Positions 54,603 through 60,947 of a stretch of 64,000 nucleotides of DNA are shown here, in pieces (the first letter of the stretch is position 1; each line of letters begins with the position of its first letter). A model generated the notes under the pieces. It searched no databases. It saw nothing but the letters and a program-made list of their open reading frames with translations, and was not told the origin of the DNA. This DNA comes from Companilactobacillus tucceti DSM 20183 (GTDB lineage Bacteria > Bacillota > Bacilli > Lactobacillales > Lactobacillaceae). Where the stretch lies: the NCBI RefSeq assembly GCF_001434665.1, contig NZ_AZDG01000011.1:1-64000 (forward strand), written 5' to 3'. The translations under genes and the position numbers were made by a program.

Positions 54603-55343
54603 TTACTTAACTAGTTCTTCAACTATTTCAAATAATTGTTGAACATCTTGAGGACGTGTATTACCGGTTACTTTATCAATAATTGAACTGTAAATATGTG
54701 GAATGATTTTTTTAACTCCAGCATCTAAAGCAATTTGTAAAATCTCTTCAAAATTATCTAAATCAATTCCACCTGTAGGCTCTAATGAAAAATCATGCTC
54801 AGCACATGCTTTTGCAACTACTTTGAATTCATCAACACAAGCTAAACCTTTCATCGGGAAAAATTTAATTGAGCTTCCTCCCATATCTTTAAGCATGGCT
54901 ATTGCTGTTTCAATTGGAACATTTCCTGCTGTTTCTTGGCTACTTAATGGACCAGTAGCAATATTAACGTATCCTACTTTGCCAGTTGGTGAAACTAATC
55001 CATTAATAAATGTATCATTTTGACCAAGTAGAGCACGACTAATACCAACACCAGTGAATACTTGATTAATATGTTGAGGTTGTAATTCTGCTGAAATACG
55101 GCTGACCATTTGACTTTGTCTAGGATCTCCTGCACCCAAACCAACTGATAATGCATTATTAGTTTCAGCTTGATACAATTTCATATCTTTAATTGCTTCA
55201 TCATCTGAATCGTAGTTTTTGGATAATACTCCTAAAACAACATGATGTTCAGCTGCCTCATAACAATCTTTGGCGTTTTGAACTGAATTTGCTAGAACAT
55301 TTAAACATACACGATCTTTATAAAAATTAGGTTTATTTGACAT
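54603..55343 (-). CDS. KDGP aldolase (DagF/DgaF family)
   Basis: The 246-residue protein belongs to the small KDGP aldolase family (PF07071 type; EF_0839-like by memory), which splits 2-keto-3-deoxy-6-phosphogluconate to pyruvate and glyceraldehyde 3-phosphate. Typical stretches are VLGVLSKNYDSD, LSVGLGAGDPRQ, VSPTGKVGYVNIATGP, SSIKFFPMKGL (probable Schiff-base Lys) and LEPTGGIDLDNF. It is the last gene of the operon starting at 60895. In Salmonella the homologue DgaF works with the PLP lyase DgaE, whose homologue lies at 57899-58999 here. RBS GAGGAG. Confidence 0.9.
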   Translation of the reverse strand: MSNKPNFYKDRVCLNVLANSVQNAKDCYEAAEHHVVLGVLSKNYDSDDEAIKDMKLYQAETNNALSVGLGAGDPRQSQMVSRISAELQPQHINQVFTGVGISRALLGQNDTFINGLVSPTGKVGYVNIATGPLSSQETAGNVPIETAIAMLKDMGGSSIKFFPMKGLACVDEFKVVAKACAEHDFSLEPTGGIDLDNFEEILQIALDAGVKKIIPHIYSSIIDKVTGNTRPQDVQQLFEIVEELVK

Positions 55344-55361
55344 AATTTGCTCCTCAGTTTT

Positions 55362-56018
55362 TTATTTTAATGAAATTGGGAAGAAAGCACCTAATACCAT
55401 AGCTCCCAAAATGGCACCACCAGCGATAGGTTTTTTCCAAAGGTAAAATATAACTGCACCGATAATCGAACCAATACCAATAGGAATCGATGCTGTTGCG
55501 GCACTAATAAGGATCAGTGGACCTAAGAAACGTCCAGATGAATTCCCTGCCCCCATCATGACATCAGCGCCAAAACTAGCTTTAGATTGATTAATAGTAT
55601 ATTTACGTACTAATGTAATAATTCCACCAATTGCTAATCCCAAGACCAAACCCGTTGCAATCGCAAACGAAAAATTAGTAATTGGTGCTTTAATACCTAC
55701 ACTTAACAAAATAGCTGGTATTCCAATTCCGACACCCGTCAAAATTGAACCACCTAAATCCAAAATTCCAACTAGAGAACCTTCCAATATTCTGGCAAAT
55801 AAGAAACTAGCACCAAAAGCTGCGGCTGCACCATATGAGCCCCCATCCATACCAGCTTTTAACATAGCAACGATTGCCACTTCATTGAATGCACCTACAC
55901 CATATTGGTAGTACATATGTGTCCCGGCAAAAACTCCTGCAGACATTAATCCGACTAGAATCGGAAATGACCACTCGGAATACCAAAAACTCTTCTTATC
56001 TATTTCCATCGATTCCAT
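55362..56018 (-). CDS. DUF4310 membrane protein of an uncharacterised transporter
   Basis: The 218-residue integral membrane protein has about six helices and many Gly/Ala small-residue motifs (MDGGSYGAAAAFGASF at about 57-72, DLGGSILTGVGIGIPAI at about 88-104, GADVMMGAGNSSGRFLGPL at about 149-167). I recognise it as DUF4310 (EF_0833-like). It occurs only with DUF4311, DUF4312 and the SFCGS protein. The glycine-rich re-entrant-like loops recall membrane subunits of PTS or ion-coupled carriers, but no transport has been shown. It lies 13 bases after the DUF4311 gene. Confidence 0.82.
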   Translation of the reverse strand: MESMEIDKKSFWYSEWSFPILVGLMSAGVFAGTHMYYQYGVGAFNEVAIVAMLKAGMDGGSYGAAAAFGASFLFARILEGSLVGILDLGGSILTGVGIGIPAILLSVGIKAPITNFSFAIATGLVLGLAIGGIITLVRKYTINQSKASFGADVMMGAGNSSGRFLGPLILISAATASIPIGIGSIIGAVIFYLWKKPIAGGAILGAMVLGAFFPISLK

Positions 56019-56031
56019 TTAATCTACTCTC

Positions 56032-56811
56032 CTATTTAACATTGAATAATCCATGCAAACTGTCTAACCAATTAGGAACTGGTAGTTTAAAGCTCTCAAT
56101 CATTTGAACATCGAATCCTCTAAAGAAAGCACTTAGAACAAATAGCACAATAATTACAGTGAACATAACCTTTGTAAGTTTTACCCAGCCTAATTCATCA
56201 ACACCTTTACCAATCAAAATTCCTAATACAACACCAGGAACAGCATTTCCCATAATCATAGCTGATAATCCACCAAAAACAGTTGCCCATAGACCACTTC
56301 TTTTACCGGCATCAATAGCTGCTAACCAAAAAATAATCGGCATAACAATATTGATCAATAACTCAGCGGCTGGTACTAAAACCTTAACAGCAGTAATTTG
56401 TAATGACTTAGGAATAGCAGAAGCAGTAGTGTTTAAAAATACGACAACTACCATACCGATAATGGCACTAGCAAAAGCCATCTTCTTTGGGTTATGCATT
56501 GTTTCTTCAATTTTTTTATTACGCATCAACAATGCTGCGGTTGCCCAATTAGGTATTACACGATGAGTGATATCTTGAGTAAATGCACCAGCTCCAACCG
56601 TAGAAGCCCAAGCATTAAAGAAAAAACCCAATCCAAATGAAAAATGTGATGCTGGATCTCCTTCACAGGCATTCATTTCTCCAAGAGTTCTAAAAGCACC
56701 TAATGCTTGAACGTTTGGTGCATTAAACATTCTGGCGGCTCCCATTCCAGCGGCAAAACCAACTAGACCACCAATTAAAATCGACTTCAATAATATAAGT
56801 ACAAACGTCAT
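56032..56811 (-). CDS. DUF4311 membrane protein of an uncharacterised transporter
   Basis: The 259-residue protein has about six to seven helices. Landmarks are GFAAGMGAARMFNAPNVQALGAFRTLGEMNACEGDPASHFSFGLGFFFNAWAS (about 18-68, an unusual polar loop with Glu, Cys, Asp and His) and GNAVPGVVLGILIGKGVDELGW at about 192-213. It matches DUF4311 (EF_0832-like). The invariant-looking polar loop between helices is a good candidate for a substrate or metal site. It starts 2 bases after the DUF4312 stop codon and is therefore translationally coupled. RBS GGGAGG. Confidence 0.82.
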   Translation of the reverse strand: MTFVLILLKSILIGGLVGFAAGMGAARMFNAPNVQALGAFRTLGEMNACEGDPASHFSFGLGFFFNAWASTVGAGAFTQDITHRVIPNWATAALLMRNKKIEETMHNPKKMAFASAIIGMVVVVFLNTTASAIPKSLQITAVKVLVPAAELLINIVMPIIFWLAAIDAGKRSGLWATVFGGLSAMIMGNAVPGVVLGILIGKGVDELGWVKLTKVMFTVIIVLFVLSAFFRGFDVQMIESFKLPVPNWLDSLHGLFNVK

Positions 56812-56813
56812 CC

Positions 56814-57179
56814 TTATTCCTCCCTTTGCCGACTAAAAAACCTTGGTAGCTGAATTCCGTTAGGATCAGCTACTTGATTCTTGATAAATTCAATTTCCTT
56901 TAAATCTAAGTATTTGATTTCTGTCTTTACCCTGAGTGTGACCTGATACATCTCCCGTTTTCTTGGCAAAAAGAAAAATAAAAAATGTTCAATATATTCG
57001 TTTACTCTTGCTTCTACAACTTCAACTGAAACTGGGGTAATTTGAATGGTTAAGTCCATATCCTGACTAATAGATTTTGAAATTTTAGATAATGCGTCAG
57101 CCATCGCTTCTTTTTTACCTTTACCATTACCCGAAACTGTCAAAATTTTTTCTTGAATCTTTTGAGAATCAGATTTCAT
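56814..57179 (-). CDS. DUF4312 cytoplasmic/peripheral protein
   Basis: The 121-residue protein has GNGKGKKEAMADALSKISKSI at about 17-37, then a beta strand-rich part with PVSVEVVEARVNEYIEHFLFFFLPRKREMYQVTLRVKTEIKYLDL. It matches DUF4312 (EF_0831-like). There is one short hydrophobic patch (HFLFFFLP) but no real membrane helix, so it is probably a soluble or membrane-attached subunit of the DUF4310/4311 system. It lies 9 bases downstream of the SFCGS gene with RBS AGGGG. Role unknown. Confidence 0.8.
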   Translation of the reverse strand: MKSDSQKIQEKILTVSGNGKGKKEAMADALSKISKSISQDMDLTIQITPVSVEVVEARVNEYIEHFLFFFLPRKREMYQVTLRVKTEIKYLDLKEIEFIKNQVADPNGIQLPRFFSRQREE

Positions 57180-57188
57180 CGTTTTCCC

Positions 57189-57542
57189 CTAACCATTAAC
57201 GCGATTATATGCTTCTACTAACTTTTGACCGAGCTCTTCAGTATCCATAAAGCCAAATCCTAGGGCTTGGATACCATCTTCAATCGCAGTTACTCCTTCT
57301 TGAACTGAACGCATACTATGACGTTCTGTATATCCATATTTATTCTTTGCAGTGATTGCTCCAGCACCACCACTACCACAAAATGAAATACCAATATCAG
57401 CGTTCTCTTGTTTCATAACGTCACCTAAACGCATATCTGCACCCATTCCTGGAACAATGACTGCAACTCCTCCAGCTTTTTCTACTCCGGCTGCCACATG
57501 TTGGCCTTTTCCCATACGATCAGCAATTACAACTTTTGTCAT
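57189..57542 (-). CDS. Glycine-rich SFCGS-family protein
   Basis: The 117-residue soluble protein starts with a beta-alpha unit (TKVVIADRMGKGQHVAAGVEKAGG). It bears the family motif ISFCGSGGAGAIT with Cys55, followed by YGYTERHSMRSVQEGVTAIEDGI. It matches the SFCGS family (EF_0830-like). The Cys-Gly-Ser-Gly loop resembles the phosphocysteine loop CGTG of galactitol/ascorbate-type PTS IIB proteins, though its position in the chain differs. It might carry a phosphate or bind the substrate for the DUF4310/4311 membrane pair. RBS TAGGAGG directly after the broken PRD gene. Confidence 0.82.
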   Translation of the reverse strand: MTKVVIADRMGKGQHVAAGVEKAGGVAVIVPGMGADMRLGDVMKQENADIGISFCGSGGAGAITAKNKYGYTERHSMRSVQEGVTAIEDGIQALGFGFMDTEELGQKLVEAYNRVNG

Positions 57543-57554
57543 TTGTTTTTCCTC

Positions 57555-57893
57555 CTAGTTTTTAGCAACTTCAAAATGTACAGCTAAAATATATTTTTCT
57601 TGTTCATTCAAATTTCCAATTCTAGTAGCTACTCGATCAGCTGCATCCAAACTTTCTTGTGATAATCCATCAAACATTGATATATCAACGTCTTCTAATT
57701 TTTATTGAGTTTCTGATCGTTTAACCATTTCTGCTAAATGATTAGTTAATACTTCTACTTGTGTTTCATCTGGATTAGCACCAATTACTTCCATTTCTAT
57801 AAGAGCTTGATCCAAGATTTGTTTAACTTTTTTTGAATAGGGACTTGCTTCAATTATTTTCTTAGTATTCTCACTGATTGGTACAACTTTCAT
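57555..57893 (-). pseudogene. PRD-domain protein broken by an in-frame TAA
   Basis: The frame from ATG 57893 runs for 113 codons to TAG 57555-57557 but has a TAA at codon 64 (57702-57704). Both halves fit one small PRD (PTS regulation domain) protein of the EF_0829 kind. The first half ends TNHLAEMVKRSETQ and the second reads KLEDVDISMFDGLSQ...LNEQEKYILAVHFEVAKN, each holding one conserved PRD His. A single G-to-T change in a GAA codon would explain it. RBS GAGG. As it stands only the first 63 residues are made. Its intact form would probably sense phosphorylation state. Confidence 0.8.
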
Positions 57894-57898
57894 TCTAT

Positions 57899-58999
57899 TT
57901 ACCTCATGATTTCCGTTATTTTTTCAATAATAGTTTTCATTTCTTCTTCATGGACAGCTCTAACATCAAATTCAATAATTCCCATATTTGCACGATACTC
58001 ACGTGTGTAAATGGCAGGACTATCAACTTTCATTTTTTCAATTAGCTCTTTAGCATCAATTGGAGAATTTTTATCCACCGTTACGCTAGCGCGATAAATA
58101 TCTCTACCAGCTGAATCCTGTGTGATTTTGGCTTCTAAATGATTTATTTTATTTATCTGTTCAACGAATGGGGCCAATCTAGTTTTCATAGAATCGCCGC
58201 TTTCAGGACCGAACTCTACATAATCTTCAATGGCTCTAGTTAATCCAAGTATATTGTCCTTACCAACTTTCATGGCACGACCAATACCTTTAGATTGAAG
58301 TCTGATCCATTCAATATATGGTTTTTTACCTAAAACTAAGCATGATGATGGACCAGAAAATGCCTTTGCACCACTATACATAACAATATCAACACCCATA
58401 TTGATATATTTGTATAAATCTTCTTCAGCAGCAGCGTCTAATATCAAAGGTAAATTATTATCGTGTGCAACATCCAAAGCTTCTTGGATCGTTAACATAC
58501 TTTTTTGAACAGCGTGATGACTTTTAACATACAAAATTGAACTAGTTTGAGGGGTGATCATCATTTTTAAATGCTCAGCTGAACACATATTGGCATATCC
58601 GGCTTCAATCATTTTTCCACCGCCAAGTTCGATCATCACTTCTTCTGGAGCACCGTAATCAACGTTTTGACCTTTAGGTATCACTACTTCACGATCTGTA
58701 AATTTATCACTGAATGGATGATAAACATGATACATACTTCCCTTACCAATGATTCCAGCAATACTTTCCGCAATGGCTGCTGAAGCAGATGGTAAAATCA
58801 CACCGTCTTCTGCACCAATCAATTTAGCAAGATGTTGACCTGTTTTTAATACCAGATCACTCATCTCAAAGAAATGTTGACCGCCAAATTTTTGAGCTTC
58901 TAAAACTGAATCGGATACTTTTGAAACTCCTAAAATAGTCATTTTTCCACTAGCATTAATAACTTGCTTTAAATCATATTTCTCATAAATATCGTTCAT
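57899..58999 (-). CDS. DgaE-like PLP-dependent ammonia-lyase
   Basis: The 366-residue enzyme is a fold-type I PLP protein related to selenocysteine synthase SelA. Visible are INASGKMTILG, GAEDGVILPSASAA (phosphate cup), ILYVKSHHAVQK, LILDAAAEED (PLP-ring Asp) and the PLP lysine Lys212 in MYSGAKAFSGPSS. The Salmonella homologue DgaE converts D-glucosaminate 6-phosphate to KDGP and ammonia. The KDGP aldolase gene in the same operon supports that reaction type. Its start overlaps the amidohydrolase stop by one base (TAATG), so it is translationally coupled. Confidence 0.9.
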   Translation of the reverse strand: MNDIYEKYDLKQVINASGKMTILGVSKVSDSVLEAQKFGGQHFFEMSDLVLKTGQHLAKLIGAEDGVILPSASAAIAESIAGIIGKGSMYHVYHPFSDKFTDREVVIPKGQNVDYGAPEEVMIELGGGKMIEAGYANMCSAEHLKMMITPQTSSILYVKSHHAVQKSMLTIQEALDVAHDNNLPLILDAAAEEDLYKYINMGVDIVMYSGAKAFSGPSSCLVLGKKPYIEWIRLQSKGIGRAMKVGKDNILGLTRAIEDYVEFGPESGDSMKTRLAPFVEQINKINHLEAKITQDSAGRDIYRASVTVDKNSPIDAKELIEKMKVDSPAIYTREYRANMGIIEFDVRAVHEEEMKTIIEKITEIMR

Positions 59000-60126
59000 T
59001 AAAATTCCTCCAAATTTGTCTCGTAAACTTCTCCGGCAACTACTGCAAAATGAGGAACAATCGACATATCTGTAGTTTTTTCATTGCCGTTGGAATCGAT
59101 TAAAACTTTAGATTTACTTTCGACATCAAAAATTGTTAAATCACCATCAAATCCTGATTTTAATTGACCTTTATTTTTTAAATTAAAATTCTCAGCTGGA
59201 TTTGTTGTGATCATTGGCAATATATCGGGTAAGGTGTATCCAAGATAAAGCATCTTATCTAAACAAGTTGCCAAGTTATAGACTGGACCATTCTCACGAT
59301 TGTGATGATAAAGATCACTACTGATAGACTTTGGAGTTAGTCCAATACTTCGAGCTTCTTGCGCTACTTCAAAATTAAAACTATCGGTTCCGTGTCCAAC
59401 ATCAAAAATTATTCCGCGATTATATCCTTCAATTGCAAAATCCTTAATCCTATGCAAATCAAGGTTCATGATTCCATTTTGTTTACCGTTATAACAGTGA
59501 GTCATAATATCTCCTGGACTCATTAAGGACATAATTTCACTCAATTCAGGAGGATTACTTCCGATATGGACCATCAATGGTAAATCATGATTTAGTTTTT
59601 GAATTGCTTTAGCTCTTTCTAGTGGATGTACACCATTACCAGAAACAACTGATTTACTTATTCGAGCCTTAATACCAACCACAAACTCGGAATATTCTTC
59701 AATCATCTTTGTTACTAAATCATCTTTTATCCGTGTCATATCACCTAATTCATCTTGAGCAATAATGCCGGTTTTAGAAATATTACACATTGCATAAACA
59801 TTCGTTCTAGCATTTTTGCTTAATTTATAAAAATCAGGTAAATTATCATATCCGGTTGAACCAGCATCAATAACAGTTGTTACGCCAGCATCGACACCGT
59901 CTAAATCTGGTTTATCATAGTATAAACTTAATTTTTCATAACAATGAACATGATCATCGATCCAACCGGAACTGACATAGTATTTTGAATGGAGGTCAAA
60001 AACTTTTTTGGCCTCAACATTACCGGGAATCTTAGTCGCAACATCAATAATCTTGCCTTGATCTATTAATACTTCAATTGATTGACCAGTAATGGTTTTT
60101 CCATTCTTCACATATAAATCGACCAT
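58999..60126 (-). CDS. Amidohydrolase/deacetylase-family metallohydrolase
   Basis: The 375-residue TIM-barrel metal hydrolase is of the EF_0837 type. Metal ligands are His59 and His61 (DDHVHCYE), a probable carboxylated Lys in VVGIKARISK, His in LMVHIGSNPP, His in THCYNGKQNG and Asp in SSDLYHH. It is related to dihydroorotase and N-acetylglucosamine-6-phosphate deacetylase. In this operon it likely removes an acyl group or opens a lactam of an amino-sugar acid before the DgaE step (inference). RBS AGGAGG. It is the first enzyme gene behind the operon promoter at 60160-60190. Confidence 0.88.
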   Translation of the reverse strand: MVDLYVKNGKTITGQSIEVLIDQGKIIDVATKIPGNVEAKKVFDLHSKYYVSSGWIDDHVHCYEKLSLYYDKPDLDGVDAGVTTVIDAGSTGYDNLPDFYKLSKNARTNVYAMCNISKTGIIAQDELGDMTRIKDDLVTKMIEEYSEFVVGIKARISKSVVSGNGVHPLERAKAIQKLNHDLPLMVHIGSNPPELSEIMSLMSPGDIMTHCYNGKQNGIMNLDLHRIKDFAIEGYNRGIIFDVGHGTDSFNFEVAQEARSIGLTPKSISSDLYHHNRENGPVYNLATCLDKMLYLGYTLPDILPMITTNPAENFNLKNKGQLKSGFDGDLTIFDVESKSKVLIDSNGNEKTTDMSIVPHFAVVAGEVYETNLEEF

Positions 60127-60149
60127 GATATCCTCCTATTTTTTGTTCG

Positions 60150-60192
60150 AATAGATAATAACATTATAATGTTTATATGTAAAACGCTTTCT
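60150..60192 (-). promoter_or_regulatory. Operon promoter with palindromic operator and cre-like site
   Basis: On the minus strand, TTTACA and TATTAT are 17 bases apart (about 60183-60155). The perfect 14-bp palindrome AACATTATAATGTT (60160-60173) lies in the spacer and -10, a natural target for the adjacent GntR protein. GTAAAACGCTTTCT (60179-60192) is a weak (11/14) cre match just upstream. Confidence 0.7.
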
Positions 60193-60895
60193 AAATCTCA
60201 TATTTAATTTTATATGGATTTAGAGACGTTAAATAAATGGCCTCTGAATATTCAATTAAGTGACCATGATGATTAAATGACTTTCTGATTCTTCTAATGC
60301 CAATGTCTTCTGAACTTTCCAATTGTTTTTGTTCGTCAGAATTTAGTTTATAAGCAAAAAACTCATCATCAAAATTATTTACCATTTCCCCTATCTCTTT
60401 GATAACTTGGTACAGAGAGACTTTTTCTAATTCGTACTTCATTTCATCATTCAATTTGAACGGCAAATAATGATGTAATAAAATATATGGTCTTCCATTA
60501 AGTCGATATATTTTTGTGATACGCGTTATAGATCCAGTAAGACGATTTAGGTCGAATTTAACCGGACTTTCATCAGCTGATATTTCATCAACTGACAAAA
60601 TCTCTTTTTGTAGTTCGCTACCTTCATGCTCCAGAATACTACTAAATGATTGAGCTTTTGATAGCCTATTAAATAAGCGATTACTGATAACAGTAGTCCC
60701 CTTACCACTTTGTTTTTCTACATATCCTTCGCTTACTAAGACTTTTATAGCGTTGCGAACGGTTATTTTACTAACATCATAAATTTTTTCTAACTCTGTC
60801 TCAGTAGGTAAAAAATCTCCTACGTCATATTCACCAGATAAAATTTTTCTTTTTAAATCATCAGCAACTTGTTGGTACAAAATAATACGTTCCAT
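60191..60895 (-). CDS. GntR/HutC-family regulator of the DUF4310 operon
   Basis: The 234-residue protein has an N-terminal GntR winged helix (LYQQVADDLKRKILSGEYDVGDFLPTETELEKIYDVSKITVRNAIKVLVSEGYVEKQSGKGTTV, about 6-69) and a C-terminal UTRA ligand domain (about 85-230). HutC/NagR-like members sense phosphorylated sugars, amino sugars or histidine derivatives. It lies 64 bases upstream of the amidohydrolase gene, same strand, with a separate promoter between them. An N-acetylated or phosphorylated amino-sugar acid is a plausible inducer. RBS GGAG. Confidence 0.9.
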   Translation of the reverse strand: MERIILYQQVADDLKRKILSGEYDVGDFLPTETELEKIYDVSKITVRNAIKVLVSEGYVEKQSGKGTTVISNRLFNRLSKAQSFSSILEHEGSELQKEILSVDEISADESPVKFDLNRLTGSITRITKIYRLNGRPYILLHHYLPFKLNDEMKYELEKVSLYQVIKEIGEMVNNFDDEFFAYKLNSDEQKQLESSEDIGIRRIRKSFNHHGHLIEYSEAIYLTSLNPYKIKYEI

Positions 60896-60919: not shown

Positions 60920-60947
60920 ATAATGATTATATTATCATAATCATTAT
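60920..60947. promoter_or_regulatory. Inverted repeat upstream of the GntR gene
   Basis: ATAATGATTAT (60920-60930) and ATAATCATTAT (60937-60947) are perfect 11-bp arms with a 6-base spacer. A second dyad GTTAG-TTATAAG-CTAAC lies at about 60955-60971. The first could be an autoregulatory site. Confidence 0.5.

Follow-up and report, generated by a model that had tools for sequence, protein, structure and literature searches.

A separable PRD-SFCGS-DUF4312-DUF4311-DUF4310 gene module in an operon of Companilactobacillus tucceti, a candidate PTS-linked uptake system for amino-sugar acids

Gene content of the C. tucceti operon

The DNA analyzed here, called the window, comprises the first 64,000 nucleotides of contig NZ_AZDG01000011.1 of Companilactobacillus tucceti DSM 20183 (assembly GCF_001434665.1). 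Positions 54603-60895 of the window contain nine genes, all located on the minus strand, which encode a GntR-UTRA regulator, an amidohydrolase, a DgaE homologue, a PRD protein, SFCGS, DUF4312, DUF4311, and DUF4310 proteins, and an aldolase (Table 1). An earlier note on this DNA described the same block, with gaps of 1-64 bases between the genes and without any Enzyme II (EII) gene of the phosphoenolpyruvate:sugar phosphotransferase system (PTS). Searches with Pfam and NCBIfam bore out both the gene names and the lack of PTS EII genes in the block. The description of the gaps needs one correction: the gene of the DgaE homologue shares one base with that of the amidohydrolase.

Table 1 Features of the operon and of the DNA upstream of it, in window coordinates
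Feature	Position	Strand	Family matches and remarks
GntR-UTRA regulator	60191..60895	-	PF00392, PF07702
Amidohydrolase/deacetylase family metallohydrolase (EF_0837 family)	58999..60126	-	TIGR03583; best PDB sequence match 2ics
DgaE-family pyridoxal phosphate-dependent ammonia lyase	57899..58999	-	TIGR01437 above cut-off, NF047797 equivalog below cut-off
Single-PRD protein gene, TAA-interrupted	57555..57893	-	second conserved His past stop
SFCGS protein, invariant Cys55	57189..57542	-	kin to YhfU (DUF2620), weakly to RpiB/LacAB
DUF4312 small protein	56814..57179	-	TIGR03578 narrowly above cut-off
DUF4311, polytopic membrane protein predicted from hydrophobic helices	56032..56811	-	TIGR03580; helical model
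DUF4310, polytopic membrane protein predicted from hydrophobic helices	55362..56018	-	TIGR03579; helical model
2-keto-3-deoxy-6-phosphogluconate (KDGP) aldolase (DgaF/DagF type)	54603..55343	-	PF07071; NF047796 above equivalog cut-off
11-bp inverted repeat with 6-bp spacer upstream of GntR gene, possible operator	60920..60947	-	sequence and script
GntR-amidohydrolase gap: palindrome AACATTATAATGTT (60160-60173) and cre-like site	60127..60190	-	sequence

Seven of the operon's families are covered by NCBIfam models that carry the EF_0829-EF_0839 names, so that the gene set belongs to a known conserved group of undescribed function, and the link drawn in the earlier note is written into the model names. 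The EF_0829-EF_0839/AHA_3910-3917 set (TIGR03577-TIGR03583) consists of the same families. Six of its models score above their cut-offs in the window, those of SFCGS (TIGR03577, 199 bits versus a cut-off of 141), DUF4312 (TIGR03578, 92.0 versus 89.65), DUF4311 (TIGR03580, 468 versus 301), DUF4310 (TIGR03579, 369 versus 215), the amidohydrolase (TIGR03583, 512 versus 432), and the aldolase. The aldolase exceeds the cut-off of the equivalog model NF047796 (406 versus 300 bits). The window differs from the known set in that a GntR regulator replaces the BglG-type regulator, the PRD-to-DUF4310 genes are positioned between those of the DgaE homologue and the aldolase, and the PRD gene is interrupted. 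The DgaE homologue matches its family model TIGR01437 (542 versus 385 bits), but its score for NF047797, the equivalog model of D-glucosaminate-6-phosphate ammonia lyase, is far under the cut-off (362 versus 600 bits). Since a mannose-PTS-linked DgaE copy from C. jidongensis also falls short, with 377 bits, this cut-off may be strict. The DUF4312 alignment (A6) contains a hydrophobic F-L-F-F-F-L stretch and an invariant arginine.

The PRD gene is broken, as had been noted, by a single in-frame TAA at 57702-57704, and the resulting fragment reaches 31.7 bits with TIGR03582 (cut-off 69.35). The frame is open in all three near relatives compared, C. kedongensis (locus L021), C. keshanensis (L022), and C. 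jidongensis (L024), and PF00874 is above cut-off in L021. The nearest genomes listed are those of C. kedongensis and C. keshanensis, with DUF4311 identities of 97 and 96%. Downstream of the stop, the PRD codons of the window and L021 differ by 15 synonymous and 7 non-synonymous changes, a pattern that points to a recent stop or to an error.

A conserved module separable from the enzymes

A scan of genome contigs confirmed at least 500 relatives, and the best 80 loci were compared. They extend from Lactobacillales as far as Yersinia, Providencia, and Chromobacterium. The PRD-SFCGS-DUF4312-DUF4311-DUF4310 core is contiguous in 73 of the 80 loci. The seven others include two contig starts (L028, L063), a fusion of BglG and PRD (L025), and a fusion of SFCGS and DUF4312 (L092). 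The operon blocks are tight, with an unassigned open reading frame (ORF) in 11 of the 80 loci. The presence of individual genes, anywhere in the fetched DNA, was counted in the 68 well-flanked loci, those with 4.5 kb or more to either side; the 12 loci below this limit were dropped. PRD is present in 66, SFCGS in 67, DUF4312 in 66, and DUF4310 in all 68 of these loci, and a BglG-type regulator in 64. The earlier note had named, as a case against its interpretation, that the DUF/SFCGS set might never be linked to DgaE or the aldolase. This case did not hold: both enzymes were found in 65 of the 68 loci, as was the amidohydrolase. Certain enterobacterial and related operons (4 of the 68 well-flanked loci, more elsewhere) include a lactonase-family gene (PF10282), in keeping with a substrate that is an aldonic acid or a lactone. 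DUF4311 is rare; it scores above cut-off in 6 of 299 Bacillota genomes and in 12 of 398 genomes from the phylum of a Chromobacterium genome.

The five core genes form a module that is separable from the enzymes. In three of the 68 loci (L025, L030, and L043), the module lies beside a BglG-type regulator and the fetched DNA contains none of the enzymes. The corresponding genomes (G302, G244, and G309; G244 was linked to its enzyme-free module by shared sequence) all encode a KDGP aldolase elsewhere. Each contains an operon of GntR, EIIC, small ORF, MupG, amidohydrolase, DgaE, aldolase, and kinase genes without DUF genes, and G302 additionally has an operon with a DagR-like regulator, a mannose-type PTS, DgaE, and the aldolase (L212). 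The DgaE/aldolase cassette is thus paired with three kinds of uptake parts: a mannose-family PTS, a PTS EIIC with MupG and kinase, or the PRD-SFCGS-DUF module. This exchange indicates that the module holds the position of a permease.

The module and MupG occur together in 15 of the 68 loci, all from Enterococcus or Lactococcus, and EIIC is present in 14 of the 15. A PfkB-type kinase, the sole kinase family sought, is encoded in 13 of the 15 MupG loci versus 1 of the 53 other loci. In NCBIfam it comes closest to 2-keto-3-deoxygluconate kinases and an aldolase-kinase fusion, in each case below cut-off. The near confinement of the kinase to MupG loci fits a module that delivers phosphorylated substrate. 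Where no kinase is linked, the substrate may be phosphorylated before arrival, on entry, or by an unlinked kinase.

The dga operon serves the use of D-glucosaminate and combines a mannose-family PTS with DgaE and DgaF. The window operon has the DgaE and KDGP aldolase families in common with it, but lacks mannose-type EII genes and contains an additional amidohydrolase. Clusters of the dga type occur elsewhere in G302 and beside the module in C. jidongensis (L024:13699-20738), where a DagR-like regulator, mannose-type EIIA, EIIB, and EIIC, and a second DgaE/aldolase pair adjoin the module operon. C. jidongensis thus has two amino-sugar-acid systems side by side.

Kinship of SFCGS and the E. coli yhf operon

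The SFCGS protein and YhfU (DUF2620) are, on profile evidence, homologous. Alignments were length-filtered before comparison with hhalign (A3 contains the window and 37 of the 80 loci; A4 the window and 37 of 76 rows), and SFCGS and YhfU matched with a probability of 91% and an E-value of 1.1e-6 across 119 columns, with the cysteines aligned. The Pfam families also cross-match, DUF2620 in three of nine SFCGS members and SFCGS in six of eight DUF2620 members. The cysteine, part of the motif CGSG in SFCGS, is present in all 90 SFCGS rows and all nine YhfU rows.

A more distant kinship of SFCGS with the RpiB/LacAB superfamily is weakly indicated. PF02502 (LacAB_rpiB) was detected in four of nine SFCGS members (best E-value 3.5e-5, 24.2 bits versus a cut-off of 24.7) and in two of eight YhfU members (best E-value 0.065). 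When a mixed SFCGS and YhfU profile was searched against the PDB, 14 of the 18 sequences matched were RpiB/LacAB, with a best E-value of 0.0029. One search with an SFCGS-only profile gave an E-value of 0.17, with five of seven matches to RpiB, and another gave none; the YhfU-only profile ranked two unrelated chains first and had no clear match. Direct hhalign matches to RpiB are weak (E-values 0.01 and 0.004). The likeness centers on the CG[ST]G loop, in which the cysteines of SFCGS and RpiB align. The RpiB cysteine is catalytic. However, SFCGS scores narrowly under the curated cut-off and its N-terminal third is unmatched. With phmmer, neither SFCGS nor DUF4312 matched a PDB sequence at E<0.5, and PDB profile searches with alignments A3, A4, and A5 led nowhere. 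The pattern of DUF4312 had raised the idea of a dodecin-like protein; it was rejected, since the PDB profile search returned only RecA repeats and Pfam showed no shared family.

The kinship extends to operon organization. The E. coli yhf operon (YhfY PRD, YhfU, YhfT, PHP, YhfS, and others), annotated as uncharacterized or putative, resembles the module operons in encoding a PRD protein (hhalign probability 97% between PRD and YhfY), a homologous cysteine protein, a membrane protein, a metallohydrolase, and a pyridoxal phosphate enzyme. It differs in its single YhfT protein, its other enzymes and regulator, and the lack of a DUF4312 match nearby. Eight yhf-type loci were examined, from E. coli, Vibrio halioticoli, Cetobacterium, and five Bacillota. 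PRD, DUF2620, and YhfT genes follow each other in six of them, and enzyme genes lie between them in two. All eight keep the PRD gene without a BglG-type regulator nearby. The first conserved PRD histidine is found in nine of nine YhfY sequences and the second in five. The yhf operons encode phosphotriesterase-like and phosphopentomutase-like proteins and no annotated kinase. The plan is seen in E. coli K-12 (yhfS-yhfZ, L009:4936-12345) and at L167:8294-16657. Among 229 genomes from the class to which a Klebsiella genome belongs, none had YhfT. G142 has a YhfT match below cut-off, and PF14188 gave a below-cut-off match in the E. coli control. Below-cut-off matches in G204 and G275 were discarded, their neighborhoods having no DUF4311- or YhfT-like gene.

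Links of the module to the PTS

Histidines of PRD domains undergo phosphorylation, and both PRD histidines of the module (His45 and His99 in E. faecalis numbering) are invariant in all 90 aligned rows. Cys55 of SFCGS is likewise invariant in 90 of 90 rows, and His56 and His83 of DUF4311 in 95 of 95. The PRD gene is present in L021, L022, and L024 without a BglG-type regulator in the locus, and the partner of the PRD protein is therefore unlikely to be that regulator alone. In L017, PRD and SFCGS are fused.

Genes of the general PTS proteins HPr and EI adjoin the operon in several genomes. On a plasmid of Bartonella sp. HY406, an HPr-EI fusion gene begins 64 bases past the BglG-type gene at the end of the operon, and no other gene in the (possibly incomplete) table of that record bears the name of a PTS phosphotransferase. 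The near-alike plasmid of HY761 has the same arrangement. PMC2405797 describes Bartonella as having ptsH and lacking ptsI, yet a figure legend in it lists multi-domain sequences from Bartonella. HPr and EI genes are located directly upstream of the operon in E. ratti, whose genome has no other EI above cut-off, and downstream of the aldolase gene and a HAD-like ORF in G159, whose genome contains other EI and HPr copies. HPr-like genes lie near the operon on the opposite strand in L013, L080, and L155.

Regulation of the Companilactobacillus operon

The GntR protein of the window is 88, 87, and 66% identical to those of L021, L022, and L024, respectively. Outside Companilactobacillus, its closest relatives in the loci searched head EIIC-type operons without DUF genes; identity is 42-45% over the full length to the GntR proteins of L210, L211, and L213, and 38% to the one adjoining the EIIC-MupG genes in L037. 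The window enzymes are not closest to those of EIIC-type operons. The amidohydrolase and DgaE homologue are closest to proteins of lactobacilli with the module, and the aldolase to Enterococcus with the module. Since the enzymes resemble those of module-bearing relatives and GntR those of EIIC-type operons, the regulator was apparently exchanged. The Companilactobacillus operon thus looks like a hybrid, in which a GntR protein of EIIC-type kinship replaces the usual PRD/BglG regulator. The earlier note had spoken of the DUF/SFCGS set as fused into an amino-sugar-acid operon, which is right in this one sense.

The inverted repeat upstream of the GntR gene is a possible operator; it is imperfect in L021 and L022. 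Both the palindrome AACATTATAATGTT and the cre-like stretch of the GntR-amidohydrolase gap are kept in these two relatives; the latter resembles the consensus of the catabolite-responsive element (cre). Rfam and terminator scans gave no match, a promoter scan found 14 sites versus a shuffle mean of 28.7, and a viral contig scan found none.

Proposed function and alternative explanations

The module is likely an importer, and an amino-sugar acid is a plausible substrate. According to the function proposed here, to which we assign a probability of about one half, the module genes encode PTS-linked uptake of an (N-acyl) amino-sugar acid. The membrane part would consist of DUF4311 and DUF4310, and at the cytoplasmic face SFCGS, a small cysteine protein that shares its superfamily with YhfU and probably RpiB/LacAB, would act with DUF4312. 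The PRD protein would join the module to HPr and EI through histidine phosphorylation. The logic of the pathway suggests that the substrate is already phosphorylated when it reaches the enzymes, having received the phosphate at or before entry. The amidohydrolase may then remove an acyl group or open a ring, the DgaE homologue would eliminate ammonia to yield KDGP, and the aldolase would produce pyruvate and glyceraldehyde 3-phosphate. In Companilactobacillus, a GntR protein related to the one in the EIIC-type sister operon would drive this hybrid operon in place of the PRD/BglG regulator.

These results support the interpretation of the earlier note in part. It had proposed that the four DUF and SFCGS proteins form an importer, perhaps a phosphorylating one, for an N-acyl or cyclic amino-sugar acid. 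Import is favored by the separability of the module and by the mannose-type PTS or EIIC that serve the same cassette. Phosphorylation by the module did not gain the same support; links to the PTS exist, yet the proteins show no likeness to the EIIA, EIIB, and EIIC proteins compared. An amino-sugar acid is consistent with the DgaE family and the KDGP aldolase, which we take, from general biochemistry and the NCBIfam names, to act on D-glucosaminate 6-phosphate and KDGP, although the DgaE equivalog cut-off was missed.

Several observations weigh against the proposed PTS-linked uptake. No module part resembled E. coli ManX/Y/Z, GatA/B, UlaA/B/C, or the EIIC of the sister operon, in a profile comparison with single-sequence templates that is a weak test, as its GatA-UlaC positive control failed and GatB-UlaB reached only 46%. 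The sequence matches of SFCGS point first to an isomerase family and not to EIIB. The PRD-SFCGS fusion comes from a single locus, in which the DUF4311 gene is interrupted by an in-frame TAG, and HPr and EI adjoin the operon in few loci. The predicted models of DUF4311 and DUF4310 are helical bundles (pLDDT 82.6 and 70.4), for which Foldseek found no match at E<=0.001; VIA-align of the DUF4311 model gave a best Z of 5.0 and no fold match. Comparisons with hhalign found nothing between YhfT and DUF4310 or DUF4311, and the idea that DUF4311 and DUF4310 are a split YhfT was dropped. The search for EI covered 41 genomes or records with the module, drawn from 35 of the 80 loci and seven others without L072, and 40 of them have EI above cut-off. 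The metagenome-assembled genome G316 contains the module, no EI above cut-off, and no HPr; it may be incomplete, since it has 1.7 Mb and carries a PTS EIIC. In Bacillota, EI is encoded in all 11 genomes with DUF4311 (6) or YhfT (5) above cut-off versus 112 of 299 overall (p 1.5e-5). However, KdgT, a non-PTS sugar-acid permease used as a control, matched in 43 of the 299 genomes (30 above cut-off, 22 strong with E<1e-80), and 19 of the 22 and 24 of the 30 were EI-positive (Fisher p 0.53 and 0.17). Co-occurrence with EI therefore mainly marks users of sugar acids and does not prove dependence on the PTS.

An ordinary importer that does not phosphorylate its substrate, perhaps a phosphate ester, is a serious if tentative alternative, in which the PTS only tunes the system via PRD and the BglG-type regulator, and any kinase is unlinked. 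PRD domains are usually regulatory, BglG-type regulators accompany 64 of the 68 well-flanked loci, no EII homology was found among the proteins compared, and the yhf operons, with their phosphotriesterase- and phosphopentomutase-like proteins, are also without an annotated kinase. Such an importer explains less well why PRD is kept in loci without a nearby BglG-type regulator, why it forms a fusion with SFCGS in L017, and why nearly all non-MupG loci lack a PfkB-type kinase. The module could instead be a membrane-bound sensor or signaling complex for the PRD antiterminator. It adjoins BglG-type regulators even where enzymes are absent, and BglG and PRD are fused in L025, but L021, L022, L024, and the eight yhf-type loci retain PRD and membrane genes without such a regulator nearby. 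A sensor would also leave most non-MupG operons without an importer inside the block. This explanation is very improbable.

A different division of labor, in which SFCGS, together with DUF4312, would isomerize or epimerize sugar phosphates as a member of the RpiB/LacAB superfamily and DUF4310 and DUF4311 alone would perform transport, appears unlikely. The PF02502 matches just below cut-off, the predominance of RpiB/LacAB among the PDB matches of the mixed profile, the common CG[ST]G motif, and the single SFCGS-DUF4312 fusion (L092) speak for it. Against it, enzyme-free modules retain SFCGS, which is joined to PRD in L017; the matches begin near residue 39; and profiles of SFCGS or YhfU alone gave weaker matches or no clear one. 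The conversion of glucosaminate 6-phosphate to KDGP is not known to require isomerization. The boldest form of the PTS-linked proposal is itself doubtful: a class of PTS permeases unrelated to Enzyme II, in which phosphate would pass from HPr to PRD, on to the SFCGS cysteine as an RpiB-fold phosphocarrier, and to a substrate held by DUF4310/4311, with yhf as a second branch. The module resembles Enzyme II complexes in its operon position, PRD/BglG regulation, and, in some loci, HPr/EI neighbors.

The gene set itself was known. The separability of the module, the three-way pairing of uptake parts, the hybrid regulator, the links to the PTS, and the kinship of SFCGS with YhfU and, weakly, RpiB are new. 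They give four families of unknown function a testable role and connect these families to an orphan operon, yhf, in the readily manipulated E. coli K-12. A module that phosphorylates its substrate would represent a further, non-homologous route that couples phosphoenolpyruvate to the uptake of sugars. Otherwise, the module is still a candidate transporter without a detected relative of known structure that swaps places with PTS permeases.

A literature search, with most subscription journals outside its scope, found no paper on DUF4310, DUF4311, or DUF4312, and its SFCGS matches were unrelated by title. Searches for the EF tags, yhf, and glucosaminate lyase found no functional study of the EF set in the material covered, including PMC7701990 and PMC2912369; the latter reports the ef_0839/ef_2975 promoter in a screen for urine-induced genes.

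Additional observations

ORFs of 264-268 amino acids that resemble HAD phosphatases, as judged by eye, follow the aldolase gene in three distant Bacillota loci (L014:12669-13469, L017:6078-6884, and L018:6546-7340). The small ORF between EIIC and MupG is located at L210:5791-6054, L211:13434-13709, and L213:6053-6325. Its L211 form begins with a hydrophobic stretch, and its E. faecalis form (L010) matched no Pfam or NCBIfam family. In the Enterococcus faecalis record, the KDGP aldolase is split into two overlapping ORFs (L010:15486-16228). The Providencia stuartii record has SFCGS and DUF4312 in one ORF (L092:9281-9958) and the BglG-type gene in two. A long SFCGS ORF in L063 was considered as a further PRD fusion and rejected, since its N-terminal extension does not look PRD-like by eye. 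On the plasmids of the Bartonella bat isolates (L012, L199, and L200), type VI secretion genes are also present, and rep/parA genes form an inverted duplication.

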